From NCBI GenBank assembly GCA_030606485.1, contig JAUWGH010000001.1, positions 124,001 through 188,000 of the forward strand: a DNA stretch of 64,000 bases. Direction: 5' to 3'. This document shows positions 27,712-53,166 of the stretch, piece by piece. Origin of the DNA: Promethearchaeota archaeon. GTDB taxonomy: Archaea; Asgardarchaeota; Lokiarchaeia; Sigyniarchaeales; SOKP01. How positions within the stretch are numbered: the stretch's first letter is position 1; each line of letters starts with the position of its first letter. Both the position numbers and the translations under genes were made by a program. Under the pieces are notes generated by a model, which was given only the letters and a program-made list of their open reading frames with translations, did no database searches and was not told where the DNA came from.

Positions 27712-30495
27712 ATGAAAACAAAAAGTAACATTTCAATGGGAACGAGTATAAATATTGAGCATAAAGGCATTGAAGAAATGTCTGAGTTGTTAAAATCCTC
27801 TTACTATTGTTATGATTGTAATCGTTGTATTAATATATGCCCTCTCTCTCCATTTGGATTGTTTTATCCAAGGCAATTAGTTAGAGATTTCTCTACTTAC
27901 TCAGTTGAAGTGGCAATTAATAACTCAAATATTTGGAGTTGTTTAACTTGTGGACTTTGTTCAGAATACTGTCCAATGTCTAAAGATAACGTTGGTGTTA
28001 ATTTTCTTGATATTATTTTGAAACTTCGGAATATTGCTACAGAAAATGACCCATTTCAAGAGGAAAAGCTTCAATGTACAACTCATGGTCGATTATATTC
28101 AAATTTACCGTATTTAATGGCTAATGATCAAATAGAATTAGTAAATAAAATTGGTTTTTTAGATAATACAGATTTAAAGATTGCTAAAAAAGGAGAAATA
28201 GCATATTTTATAGGTTGCTTGCCATTTATGAATGGAATATCACCGTGCACACAAGCTTGCCCTGCAAATATTGATGTTCAAGGATATATTACATTAATTA
28301 AAGAAGGAAGATTTCAAGAATCTCTCAATTTAATACGGGAAAGGAATCCCCTTCCAGGTGTATGTGGACGAATTTGCACACATCCATGTGAATTAAATTG
28401 TAATCGTAATACTATAGATAAGCCAATTGCCATCAGGGCATTAAAAAAATTTGTTGCTGATTGGGAAATAAAAAACCAACCCTTAAGTCAATTACAACCA
28501 TTTGAACAAACAAACGAACAAGTTGCTATTATTGGTTCGGGACCCGCTGGCTTAGCAGCAGCATATTTCCTCGCAAAGAAAGGATACAAACCAACAATAT
28601 TTGAAGCCAGCCCCTTTAAAGGAGGTATGTTGAGAGTTGGAATCCCAGAATATCGATTGCCTGATGACATTTTGGATTATGAAATTGAATTCATAGAAAA
28701 AAGTGGAGTCGAGATAAAAACAAATGTTCCAATAGGACCAGATTTGACATTTAAGAAATTAACAAATATGGGTTATAAAGCGATTTTTATATCAATAGGG
28801 CTCCAGAGTAGCCGAAGTATGAGACTCGAAGGTGAAGAATTAAATAATGTTATAGGAGGAATAAAATTTCTCAAAGATTTCAGACCTACAGATCAAGAAT
28901 CTAAAAAATCTACTGTGATAATAAAAGATAAAATTATTGGAGTAACGGGTGGTGGAAATGTTGCTATGGACTCAGCAAGAACTGCCGTAAGGTTAGGTGC
29001 AAAAAAAGTGATTATTATTTATCGACGTTCGGAAAAGGAAATGCCTGCAGCAGAAGAGGAAATTGAAATGGCAAAAGAAGAAAATATAGATTTTCAATTC
29101 TTAACTAATCCAGTAAAAATAATTGGAGATAAAAAAGGAAATGTTTCCAAAGTAGAATGTATCCGAATGAAACTTGGCGAACCAGATTCTTCAGGAAGGA
29201 GAAGACCTATTCAAATCGAAGGTTCTGAATTTAAAATGAAAATTGATGTGTTAATATTAGCAATAGGTCAAGAAGCTGATTATTTTCTCCTAAAGGCAGC
29301 TCAAAATGAGTTGATAATAAATAAAAGAGGTAGAATCCAAATTGATGACTCTACTTTAGAAACAAATATCCCTGGTGTTTTTGCTGGGGGAGATGTTACA
29401 GAAGGTCAAGGAATAGCAATTAGAGCAATAGCTAATGGATATGAAGCAGCAATTTCTATTGATCGATATCTAAGAGGGATTGATATAGGTGAAAACAGAT
29501 TTAAAAGAGAAGAATTTAAAACATCACCAATCCCTAAAAAGGAAGTCAATCTCGAAGAGAGAAATGATCTGCCTCTTATCCCAATAGAAGAAAGATGTAG
29601 CTCTTTTAATGAAGTTGAACTCGAATTTACCGAAGAAATTGCAATTCAAGAAGCAAATCGATGCTTAAATTGTAATAGTTGTTCTAACTGTGATATCCCT
29701 TATGAAAAAAATGATGATTCATTTAATAGTTCCCAAAAACCAAAACATTACTATGGAACATGTCAATTTCCACTCTACAATAACAATATTGATTATCTGA
29801 AAATTCCCAAAACAACTATTGGTATTTTAAACCTTAATAATATCACGCCGGTGGTTTTAGCTGATGAGAGATGTTGTGGACATGATTGTTATTGGACCGG
29901 AGATCTTGATACTTTCGAAAAATTGGCAAAATATAACATGAAATTATATAAAGATGCAGGAGTAAAAACCATAATATGCAGCTGTGCTGAAGGTTACTAT
30001 ATGTGGAAGTATGTATATAAAGACTTTTTTAAAGATGATAATGAATATAATTTTAAAGTATATCACATTAGCGAATACATACAAAAAGAAAGATTATTAG
30101 ATGATTTGAAACTATCTAATCAGGATAAAATTAAAATAACTTACCATGACCCCTGCAGACTTGGCAGATTGAGTAATGTTTATGATGCTCCCCGTGAGAT
30201 ATTAAATAATTTATCAAATGTTGAATTAATAGAAATGATAAATATTAGGCAAGATGCAAATTGTTGTGGAGTCTCTGCTTATATCTCTTGTAGTAATTAT
30301 TCAAAACTACTACAAGGTCAAAGAATTAATGAAGCTATTGATACAGGTGCCGAATATTTGATAGTAACATGCCCAAAATGTTTAACTCATTTTAATTGCT
30401 ATCTACAAGAAAATAGAGATTTAAGACTAAAAGTAATGGATTTAGTCTCTTTCCTTGGAATGATATATCGTGATAAGGAGATATTACTTCAATAA
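27712..30495 (+). CDS. HdrC-GltD-HdrB composite oxidoreductase
   Basis: 927 residues. Residues 1-165: an HdrC-like iron-sulfur domain with two [4Fe-4S] motifs (CYDCNRCINICP, CLTCGLCSEYCP). It then begins a CCG (HdrB/HdrD) domain with AYFIGCLPFMN but switches at about 176 into a full GltD/NfnB-like flavoprotein (to about 665). That part has CTQACPANID, CGRICTHPCELNC, FAD loop IIGSGPAGLAAAYFLA, NADPH loop GVTGGGNVAMDSA and a terminal CLNCNSCSNC. The CCG domain then resumes (YYGTCQFPLYNN ... ERCCGHD) and a second one follows (HDPC ... ANCCG ... CPKC). It probably passes electrons between NAD(P)H, FAD and non-cubane clusters. It converges with hdrA-mvhD-frhB, the likely partners. The frame is intact, so no assembly break is evident. 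Confidence 0.85.
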   Translation: MKTKSNISMGTSINIEHKGIEEMSELLKSSYYCYDCNRCINICPLSPFGLFYPRQLVRDFSTYSVEVAINNSNIWSCLTCGLCSEYCPMSKDNVGVNFLDIILKLRNIATENDPFQEEKLQCTTHGRLYSNLPYLMANDQIELVNKIGFLDNTDLKIAKKGEIAYFIGCLPFMNGISPCTQACPANIDVQGYITLIKEGRFQESLNLIRERNPLPGVCGRICTHPCELNCNRNTIDKPIAIRALKKFVADWEIKNQPLSQLQPFEQTNEQVAIIGSGPAGLAAAYFLAKKGYKPTIFEASPFKGGMLRVGIPEYRLPDDILDYEIEFIEKSGVEIKTNVPIGPDLTFKKLTNMGYKAIFISIGLQSSRSMRLEGEELNNVIGGIKFLKDFRPTDQESKKSTVIIKDKIIGVTGGGNVAMDSARTAVRLGAKKVIIIYRRSEKEMPAAEEEIEMAKEENIDFQFLTNPVKIIGDKKGNVSKVECIRMKLGEPDSSGRRRPIQIEGSEFKMKIDVLILAIGQEADYFLLKAAQNELIINKRGRIQIDDSTLETNIPGVFAGGDVTEGQGIAIRAIANGYEAAISIDRYLRGIDIGENRFKREEFKTSPIPKKEVNLEERNDLPLIPIEERCSSFNEVELEFTEEIAIQEANRCLNCNSCSNCDIPYEKNDDSFNSSQKPKHYYGTCQFPLYNNNIDYLKIPKTTIGILNLNNITPVVLADERCCGHDCYWTGDLDTFEKLAKYNMKLYKDAGVKTIICSCAEGYYMWKYVYKDFFKDDNEYNFKVYHISEYIQKERLLDDLKLSNQDKIKITYHDPCRLGRLSNVYDAPREILNNLSNVELIEMINIRQDANCCGVSAYISCSNYSKLLQGQRINEAIDTGAEYLIVTCPKCLTHFNCYLQENRDLRLKVMDLVSFLGMIYRDKEILLQ

Positions 30496-32018: not shown

Positions 32019-32071
32019 TTTTCTTCAAATTAAATATTTATTTATAAAATAATCCGAGATCCCTTGCAAGG

Positions 32072-32113
32072 AGAGTCACTTTATAACTAAAATTTTTTTA
32101 TAAAGGTCATTCT
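32072..32113 (-). promoter_or_regulatory. Eukaryote-like SECIS element (selenocysteine insertion) after mvhD
   Basis: Read on the minus strand: AUGAC, then an eight-pair perfect stem CUUUAUAA/UUAUAAAG with an 11-base A-rich loop beginning AAAAA, then UGAC. The opposed UGA and GA give tandem G.A pairs, as in the eukaryotic SECIS core (AUGA...GA) with an A-rich apical loop. A short AGA/UCU helix closes it below. It starts 3 bases after the mvhD stop. Published work on Lokiarchaeota reports SECIS elements of this eukaryote-like form. A second palindrome, CCTTGCAAGG (32062-32071), follows directly. The fold is drawn by eye. Confidence 0.7.
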
Positions 32114-32115
32114 AT

Positions 32116-32538
32116 TCAGATTTTTTTTGGTAAAGGAGGCAATTTTTTTAGTTTCTCTATTATATCAGTAGTAGCATTAAGAAAATTTTCCACCTCTGCA
32201 GCAGATACAAAATAATATTCAACTCTATTTTCAGATATTCCGATATGTTTGAAAAGTTTTTTTAAAAATTTAATATGCTTATATGTATTCATATTACCAT
32301 CTCCGAACTCACACTCATGCTCATGTCAACCTATTATTGCAACCCCATCTGCCCCACTGAGAAGTGATTCTATGATTATATCCAAACTTACACGTCCTGT
32401 ACATTTCACTCTTATTATATAGATATCAGATGAATATTGTTTTCTACAAGTACCGGTTAAATCTGCAGCTGCATAACCTCATTTTTCGCAAGCAAACATT
32501 ATAATTTTAGGATTTTGATTTATTATTTTACTTTCCAT
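32116..32538 (-). CDS. mvhD: MvhD/VhuD-like iron-sulfur subunit, selenoprotein with two Sec
   Basis: A 140-residue gene that standard gene finding misses, because two UGA codons (32479-32481 and 32326-32328) are in frame. Read as Sec they give FACEKUGYAAADLTG (U20) and AIIGUHEHECEFGDGN (U71). MvhD homologues have Cys at both places (WCSYAGADL and GGCH...C). The segment IIRVKCTGRVSLDIIIESLLSGADGV matches MvhD as well. The subunit carries a [2Fe-2S] cluster and links the electron donor to HdrA. The start ATG 32538 lies 10 bases after GAGGGG. The stop is UGA at 32116-32118, giving the usual family length. It sits between hdrA and the frhB-like gene. No hydrogenase large subunit is nearby. Confidence 0.9.
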
Positions 32539-32576
32539 TTTTTTTAAACCCCTCATTTTTTATTATTCACTTAGAT

Positions 32577-34550
32577 TTAAACTGTATCCTCTATAGAATA
32601 ATTATTTCCACAGATTCCATATATTTCACTTTTAAATTGATTATTCCTATAATATTTTAAATCTAATGCATTAGCTGGACAGACTGTTACACACAATCCA
32701 CATCCTTTACAGTTTAATTCATCTATTTCGGCTATACCATCTTCATTTACTTTAATAGCGTGATAGAAACATGATTTTTCACACCGGTGGCATCCCATAC
32801 ATAGATTCTGATCAACTTCCGGAATCATTAAATCCAGTCTTATTCTGCCTGATAATACTAGAGCCGATGCTTTACTCGCAGCTGCTAATGCAGTAGATAC
32901 GGAATATGGAATGTTTTTTGGACCTGCAGCACAACCACAAATATATATACCCCGTTTATTGGTCTCTTGAGGTGAAAGACATCCATGAATTTCTGATAAA
33001 AATCCATTTGGCCCTTTGTCCAATCCCAATACTTCAATGGCTTCTTTTGTTCCTTTTGATGGATTGATTCCGGTGGATAAAACAATTAAATCATATTCCA
33101 TCTCTTGAATGCCCAATGATTCTCTTAAAGAATCTTGCACCAAAAATTTCAAATTTTTTGTTATCGGATCTTCATACACTCGTGAAATATTACTCTTTAT
33201 AAAATTAACTCCTGCTTTCCTCGTTGTGGTATAATATTCTTCATTCCCTTTATCGGTAGCTCTAATATCAATGTAAAAAATTGTGATTTCTATATCTGGA
33301 TATTCTTGTTTTAAAAGTTGGGCATTTTTCATTGCAACCATACAACAAACACCCGAACAATATATATTAGCTTTTAAATTCCGTGATCCAACACACTGAA
33401 ACATAGCAACATTTTTAGGCGTTTTACAATCGGAAATTCTATGGACATGACCATCAGTTGGACCGATTGGACTTAACAATCTTTCCAATTCTATTTGGGT
33501 TATTACATTTGGATAGATGCCATAACCATACTCATTACTATCAATAATTGGATATTCATCCCAACCAGTTGCTATTATAACAGCCCCCACTTTAATATCG
33601 ATATATTCTGGCTGTTGTTCATAATCAATTGCTTCAGCAGGACAATTTGTTTCACAAAGTTTGCAGTCAATGCATACTTCTTTATCAATTAAAGCAAGAA
33701 TCGGGACTGCTTGTGGAAATGGAATATAAATTGAATGTCTCTGCCCAATTCCTCTATTAAATTCATCTGGCACATCTATTGGACATTTAGTGGTGCATAA
33801 ACCGCATCCCGTACATTTGTTTTCATCAACATATCTTGGTTTTTTAAGAATTTTTATTTCATAATTGCCAGCGAATCCACCAAATTCGACAACTTCACAG
33901 TATGTCATTAATTCAATATTTGGATGTTTTGATGCATTAACCATAATTGGTGCTAGTACTCATATTCCGCAATCATCTGTTGGAAATATTCGATCTAACT
34001 GTGCCATTCTACCGCCTATTGTTGGTTCTTTTTCAACTAGATATACCTTAATACCATGATTTGCTAAATCTAACGCAGCATTCATCCCGGCAATACCAGC
34101 TCCTATAACTAACGCCGATTTTTCAACGCTAAATTCTTTGATTGGCACAGTTTCTAAAAGACGCGCTCTATTAACTCCTGCACGAATTAAATTTTTTGCT
34201 TTTTGAGTCGCTTTTTCTTTATTTTCTTGATGTACAAAAGAACAATGTTCTCTTATATTTACCATTTGAAAATAATTTGGATTTAATCCGGACTCAGCAC
34301 ACAATGATTTGTATGTGGGTTCATGAATTTTTGGTGTTCATGACGCTACTACAACTCTATTTAAGTCCAACTCTTGAATATCATTTTTAATTATTTGTTG
34401 ACCTGGATCTGAACATGTGAATTTATTAATTTTAGTCACTACAATATTTGGTAATGTTTCTGCAAAGTCTCTTAATGCTTCACAATCTACGTAACCCCCT
34501 ATATTTACCCCTCACTCACAAACATAAACTCCAATGCGAACTTGTTCCAT
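32577..34550 (-). CDS. hdrA: Heterodisulfide reductase subunit A, selenoprotein with three Sec
   Basis: 657 residues when three in-frame UGA codons are read as Sec: U13 in YVCEUGVNIGG (34512-34514), U71 in VVVASUTPKIHEP (34338-34340) and U197 in DDCGIUVLAPIMV (33960-33962). Each replaces a Cys conserved in HdrA (CxCGTN, VASCSP, DCxxC). The FAD loop ALVIGAGIAGMNAAL comes between U71 and U197. Four ferredoxin motifs follow: CTGCGLCTTKCP, CIDCKLCETNCP, CMGCHRCEKSC, CKGCGLCVTVCP. Total length fits HdrA. This is the flavin-bifurcating core of Hdr complexes. First gene of hdrA-mvhD-frhB, start ATG 34550 after GGGGAG. A naive call gives two fragments plus a lost N-terminus; the protein continues smoothly across each UGA, so it is not a pseudogene. 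Confidence 0.93.
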
Positions 34551-53066: not shown

Positions 53067-53166
53067 CGCAGAAGGAGGGAATTGAACCCCCGCGTGTGAA
53101 ACACACACCGGCTTTCCCGATTCTAAGAATCTCGAGGCCGGCGCCTTACCACTAGACTACTTCTGC
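53067..53166 (-). tRNA. tRNA-Ser (anticodon CGA) with 17-base intron
   Basis: Class II tRNA. Acceptor GCAGAAG/CTTCTGC, discriminator G (typical for Ser), D-stem GTC/GGC, anticodon stem CCGGC/GCCGG, loop CT-CGA-G-(intron)-A, variable arm GTGTG/CACAC, T-arm GGGGG-TTCAATT-CCCTC. The anticodon CGA is at 53132-53134. An extra 17 bases (53114-53130) lie after position 37 and fold as an ATTC/GAAT hairpin; CTCG can pair with CGGG to form a splice-site helix. CCA is not encoded. It is recognised by the common-type SerRS found here. Confidence 0.85.

Follow-up and report, generated by a model that had tools for sequence, protein, structure and literature searches.

The selenocysteine insertion sequence (SECIS) elements closest to the one described here are the eukaryote-like elements that Huang 2024 (PMC11227280) reported for 85% of 1439 Asgard selenoprotein genes. 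According to that study (PMC11227280), Lokiarchaeia cores read AUGA_GA or AUGA_AA with AAAAA loops, the AUGA motif is often overlapped by the stop codon, and the neighbors hdrA and frhD (mvhD) have one element in common. Its type I model comprises a 5'-GA_[G/A]A-3' core, an upper stem of 7-15 bp with at most 2 mismatches, an apical loop of 8-20 nt, an internal loop and a lower stem, positioned no more than 30 nt before or 600 nt after the gene end and with an energy below -5.0 kcal/mol. A 2022 review gave a Lokiarchaeota element with only one apical loop. We analyzed a 64 kb window, the whole stretch from positions 124,001 to 188,000 of contig JAUWGH010000001.1 from a Promethearchaeota archaeon, in which such an element follows the gene mvhD. 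Our analyses indicated that this element is very probably a 72-nt three-way-junction SECIS of a bicistronic lokiarchaeal hdrA-mvhD mRNA, with a kink-turn leading into its upper stem (P2) and an additional hairpin (P3). The role of P3, the binding partners and the sharing of the element with hdrA are the parts of this proposal that we infer.

On the minus strand just 3' of mvhD (32110-32075), the RNA reads AUGAC, 8 bp, AAAAAUUUUAG and UGAC. A descriptor of this hairpin ([AG]UGAN, 8 Watson-Crick pairs, an A-rich loop of 8-14 nt, and N[AG]A) had this single match on both strands of the 64 kb and none in 20 dinucleotide shuffles. In alignment A1, which contained 31 homologous sequences and was made with plain MAFFT unfitted to structure, compensatory, double-sided changes occurred at 8/8 stem pairs of P2, and AAA, U and G in the loop were near-invariant. 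The covariance model R1, trained on 19 mvhD orthologues, scored the window element at 58.6 bits (E 4.5e-12) and its second-best match in the window at 16.1 bits. An Rfam search of the window matched only a tRNA and no SECIS model. The element has both the AUGA_GA quartet and the apical AA that define eukaryotic SECIS, and it compares closely with the model of Huang 2024: a GA_GA core, 8 bp with 0 mismatches, an 11-nt loop, a start inside the mvhD stop region and an energy of -9.7 kcal/mol over 72 nt (-4.0 for a 63-nt stretch lacking the outermost stem, P1). Methanogen SECIS likewise lie in 3' untranslated regions, following archaeal selenoprotein genes such as hdrA and vhuD, and have a kink-turn-like motif; by description they differ in their GAA_A bulge and its clamp of G-C pairs, both absent from the window element. 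Judged by these sequence features, the hairpin after mvhD is a real SECIS of the known eukaryote-like Asgard type I. The initial annotation had likewise called it eukaryote-like and not methanogen-like, in agreement with published Lokiarchaeia elements. It had named an unconserved stem or a better SECIS nearby as grounds for abandoning the assignment; the stem covaries, and the next match in the window is the far weaker one given above.

The same alignment showed a larger structure, with P1 (CCGAA/UUCGG) and a P3 such as ACCC-UUGC-GGGU in addition to P2. The conserved unit is 72 nt long (32051-32122, minus strand; Table 1) and consists of P1, a C helix, an AAU bulge with G.A pairs, P2 and P3; the span of little over 40 bases first assigned to it was too narrow. 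The minimum free energy (MFE) structure of these 72 nt is exactly the three-way junction, in which the non-bulged strand runs from the C helix through P3 to P1. Standard pairs filled 86.6% of the cells of A1 compared with 72.5% after shuffling, and double-sided changes numbered 90 versus 29 in shuffles (0/500); they were present at 5/5 pairs of P3. Pairing fell to about 54% when A1 was slid by one column. The apex of P3 contained GC in 142/155 elements versus 101/336 (30%) shuffled controls. A GNRA reading of the P3 loop suited only part of the set, the constant feature being GC. Together, the conservation and covariation of P1, the C helix, P2 and P3 indicated that the element recognized after mvhD is one arm of a conserved, predicted three-armed RNA.

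A plain eukaryote-like SECIS hairpin with core, upper stem, apical loop, internal loop and lower stem, in which P3 is incidental, would match the published model and the one apical loop of the 2022 review, and RNAalifold on A1 predicted P2 alone. We regard this explanation as improbable, because the P3 pairs covary in the mvhD sets and P3 with its GC apex recurs in vhuU and selD elements. Nor does the window element have the plain internal loop between two stems that is a trait of eukaryotic SECIS, its 3' side being occupied by C-helix pairing and P3. With the Asgard type I elements (Mariotti 2016; Huang 2024) it has in common the AUGA_GA/AUGA_AA core, a stem of 7-15 bp, a loop of 8-20 nt opening with adenines, the lower stem, the location at the stop codon and the association with adjoining hdrA and frhD. 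Those elements are described with one apical loop and an internal loop, whereas here the 3' side of the internal loop forms P3 and the C helix. The text of Huang 2024 mentions neither a hairpin nor a SECIS junction; P3 may be drawn in Mariotti 2016. The hairpin is thus a further member of the published kind, and the whole three-way junction with P3 is a new structural variant.

The core of the element was compared across the retrieved set. The bulge was AAU or GAU in 123/155 elements. The 5' GA was a requirement of the descriptor, and its 3' partner was GA in 103/155 elements and AA in 40/155, giving G.A and A.A pairs, respectively. The first C-helix pair was standard in 149/151 distinct elements (G-C, U-A, C-G and A-U types), and the second was present in most elements; controls slid by 1-2 nt were much lower. 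As the next pair below the bulge is nearly always standard, the core has, at the sequence level, the C helix, 3-nt bulge, tandem G.A and NC helix (P2) that together make up a canonical kink-turn. These parts are common to the kink-turns and k-junctions of U4, box C/D, Kt-7 and the thiamine pyrophosphate (TPP) riboswitch. Like a k-junction, the element has an additional helix on the non-bulged strand; unlike in k-junctions, which serve another function, this helix lies 2-3 bp (the C helix) away from the G.A pairs and not directly opposite the loop. Eukaryotic SECIS form 1 is described with neither a base-paired, kink-turn C helix directly below the bulge nor the extra hairpin P3. Its upper stem is also longer than the 8 bp of the window element.

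To sample the element more broadly, 3' regions of mvhD relatives within the family and beyond were collected, and about 150 related genes were compared. R1 matched 40/63 held-out mvhD-type loci, including three other mvhD genes of the same genome with selenocysteine (Sec) codons, and 33/44 loci of vhuU, the FrhA C-terminal selenopeptide. None of the 7 Cys-mvhD loci in the same genome was matched. In the held-out R1 alignments, double changes were found at 20/20 pairs (mvhD-type) and 15/20 pairs (vhuU), the alignments being fitted to the model. An independent layout descriptor, run with shuffle controls on the 3' regions of mvhD, vhuU and selD, placed 152/170 elements above the 5% shuffle threshold (mvhD 78/84, vhuU 42/44 and selD 32/42 regions). 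The selD elements often belonged to type II as published, one example of their P3 being CACCUGUGAGGUG. Those of family f8 had a GUGA core, P1 GAGACCG/CGGUCUC and P3 GCCGC-UGCGA-GCGGC; they probably belong to Thorarchaeia, for which Huang describes the GUGA core. A joint MAFFT alignment of mvhD and vhuU for a broader model was unusable, the P1 lengths being different, and the genome-wide R1 matches L109 to L113 were rejected as weak, L109 sitting within an ordinary open reading frame. A divergent form of the element, here called C1-type, was observed after mvhD in the genus (L009:1944-2025; also L060, L063 and L078); its apical loop is long and its P2 contains U.U mismatches, but P1, the core and P3 are retained. 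Another element (L040:1924-1999) follows an mvhD that has one in-frame UGA left beside one Cys; it reads AUGC in place of AUGA, with loss of the kink-turn adenine, and is possibly a decaying SECIS.

These distributions bear on two further explanations. As L7Ae-family proteins bind both kink-turns and eukaryotic SECIS, an AAUGA core with a C helix, which is canonical kink-turn anatomy, could bind L7Ae in a regulatory role, of the kind seen in L7Ae/L30 autoregulation or in box C/D RNA, and not for Sec insertion; the silence of R1 at the 7 Cys-mvhD loci and the occurrence of the element after mvhD, vhuU and selD genes carrying in-frame UGA make this very unlikely. A riboswitch-like, k-junction-type sensor of selenium state, acting on Sec insertion or on the frhB-like gene downstream, is comparably hard to credit: the third helix on the non-bulged strand recalls TPP-riboswitch k-junctions and the element does lie between mvhD and the frhB-like gene, but there is a C helix where a k-junction would have its third helix opposite the loop, no expression platform was seen, and the same element follows selD and vhuU, where the downstream genes differ.

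The relation of the three-way-junction SECIS to the mvhD stop codon differs in detail between relatives. The UGA stop of the window gene (32118-32116) is separated from AUGA by 5 bases, and not by the 3 of the initial annotation. In genus mates L017 and L018, mvhD ends ...PKKSE-UAG, compared with ...PKKI-UGA in the window. The window gene terminates at UGA because an A run within 32116-32130 is 1 nt longer, with 8 A versus 7 in both genus mates, which shifts the protein end; the extra A may be either true or an assembly error. The genus-mate UAG (equivalent to 32114-32112) is 1 base before AUGA and itself forms the C-helix 5' strand; in vhuU, the UGA of the SECIS core doubles as the stop codon. 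A placement so close to the stop, at first thought unusually tight, is the rule in this group: published and retrieved relatives routinely overlap the stop codon. A separate short vhuU gene (L108:1347-1508; CYDCULSC) was also observed, its stop UGA being the UGA of its own SECIS core.

Upstream of the element, hdrA ends 20 nt before mvhD on the same strand, and the two genes contain five in-frame UGA (three in hdrA, two in mvhD). At both mvhD positions, U26 and U77, the alignment shows an invariant Cys in the Cys paralogues of the same genome, which also encodes EFSec (TIGR00475, above cut-off), SepSecS, tRNA-Sec and SelD with an in-frame UGA. This combination of aligned UGA codons and Sec machinery identifies mvhD as a putative selenoprotein gene with Sec at U26 and U77. 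The genome (3.75 Mb, 13 contigs) has 11 MvhD-domain genes, of which 4 have two in-frame UGA. It falls within Lokiarchaeia, where 'Candidatus Lokiarchaeia archaeon ABR01' and 'Lokiarchaeota archaeon 6H3_1' come closest to it among named relatives (95-97% protein identity). The five codons lie about 0.2, 0.4, 1.9, 2.2 and 2.4 kb from the element. There was no separate SECIS for hdrA in the window, where R1 gives a single match, and the best reading, which is also the published view, is that hdrA and mvhD use one common SECIS. This probable use by hdrA, with its three more UGA, the kink-turn C helix and the three-way junction all go beyond the initial annotation.

Several observations weigh against our proposal. 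The hdrA Sec codons are 1.85-2.4 kb away, more than the 70-1500 nt quoted for archaeal codon-SECIS distances. The folding energies of the hairpin region and of the 72-nt element equal those of shuffles (z about 0); MFE was dropped as evidence and covariation relied on, because energy alone is uninformative in this A+T-rich sequence. Alignments A3 and A4 were fitted to the model and so lean toward it, and relatedness among the gene families and among the Asgard classes makes the covariation cell counts non-independent events. In the window, U-C occupies the third C-helix position and P1 includes a G-U pair. Finally, in one published test (PMC11881835), a lokiarchaeal SECIS was inactive in Methanococcus maripaludis.

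If the proposal is correct, P1 would close the junction, and the C helix (2-3 bp), AAU bulge and tandem G.A would form the kink-turn leading into P2. Eukaryotic SECIS use SBP2, which has not been reported in Asgard genomes and is reported absent in archaea. Kink-turns are bound by proteins of the L7Ae family, one of which, L30, binds eukaryotic SECIS; on these grounds we infer that the best candidate for the SECIS-binding protein of archaea belongs to this family. Such a protein (ribosomal L7Ae or L30e, replacing the missing SBP2) or another factor may hold the kinked RNA, EFSec with Sec-tRNA would be recruited to the element, and the ribosome would decode the five upstream UGA as selenocysteine. 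For P3, stacking on either the C helix or P1 is probable, and its GC loop may be a second contact.

Table 1. Positions of the selenoprotein genes and of the parts of the predicted three-way junction in the window
Feature	Position	Strand	Basis
mvhD/frhD/vhuD putative selenoprotein gene; Sec codons U26 (32479-32481), U77 (32326-32328)	32116..32556	-	PF02662 1.8e-39
hdrA putative selenoprotein gene; Sec codons U13, U71, U197	32577..34550	-	HdrA2 NF040770 4.9e-251
P1 5' strand AAUCUGA, inside mvhD coding end, includes mvhD stop	32116..32122	-	MFE fold, covariation
C-helix 5' strand AG, within the genus-mate UAG stop	32112..32113	-	pairs with 32074-32075
5' core: bulge AAU (32111-32109), G-A (32108-32107), C (32106)	32106..32111	-	element counts
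AUGAC, 5' side of hairpin	32110-32106	-	sequence reading
P2 5' strand CUUUAUAA, upper SECIS stem	32098..32105	-	8 bp with 32079-32086
P2 apical loop AAAAAUUUUAG, unpaired adenines and conserved U..AG	32087..32097	-	alignment, 31 sequences
P2 3' strand UUAUAAAG	32079..32086	-	covariation
UGAC, 3' side of hairpin	32078-32075	-	sequence reading
3' core U-G-A, sheared A.G and G.A partners	32076..32078	-	element counts
C-helix 3' strand CU	32074..32075	-	pairing count over elements
P3 5' strand UCCUU, second hairpin	32068..32072	-	covariation
P3 apex GCA	32065..32067	-	GC count versus shuffles
P3 3' strand AGGGA	32060..32064	-	covariation, MFE fold
P1 3' strand UCGGAUU	32051..32057	-	covariation, MFE fold

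Some observations concern the Sec machinery and the surroundings of the locus. The tRNA-Sec gene (113 nt, minus strand; L120:1501-1613, G000 C2:189906-190018) has extra length that by eye looks like an anticodon-loop intron; the published Lokiarchaeota tRNA-Sec has its intron in the T arm. Sel_Asgard (NF045535; L235:5716-6402, G000 C2, minus strand) is encoded directly downstream of SepSecS, was matched in 49/58 relatives and is a candidate Sec-system factor. Its assignment as SBP2-like was rejected: the AlphaFold model was confident (predicted local distance difference test score 91) and had no PDB match below E 0.001, with no L7Ae-like fold among the matches listed; its similarity to RnlA and to the Vps28 C-terminal bundle was weak. 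Adjoining the hdrA-mvhD-frhB cluster, a 927-aa fusion (27712-30495, plus strand) combines two CCG domains with a GltA-like Pyr_redox_2/Fer4_20 module. A 100-nt tRNA match at 53067-53166 (minus strand) probably contains an intron.

The question of what RNA features and protein drive archaeal Sec insertion makes the Asgard elements of interest, and these have been put forward as the bridge to the SECIS of eukaryotes. Should the Asgard element be a three-way junction with a canonical kink-turn and conserved P3, constructs limited to a minimal hairpin may have left part of it out of the test, an L7Ae-family binding candidate and exact compensatory mutants would follow directly, and on the path to the eukaryotic element P3 would have been lost and the C helix opened. 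More tentatively, and with rather more doubt than confidence, we suggest that the Asgard SECIS of at least three gene families (hdrA-mvhD, vhuU and selD) are kink-turn three-way junctions, that P3 is an ancestral second recognition module lost by eukaryotes, and that an L7Ae-family ribosomal protein, possibly together with Sel_Asgard, does what later became the job of SBP2. An ancestral P3 and an L7Ae-family binder, if real, would offer one explanation for the failure of the lokiarchaeal SECIS in a methanogen.
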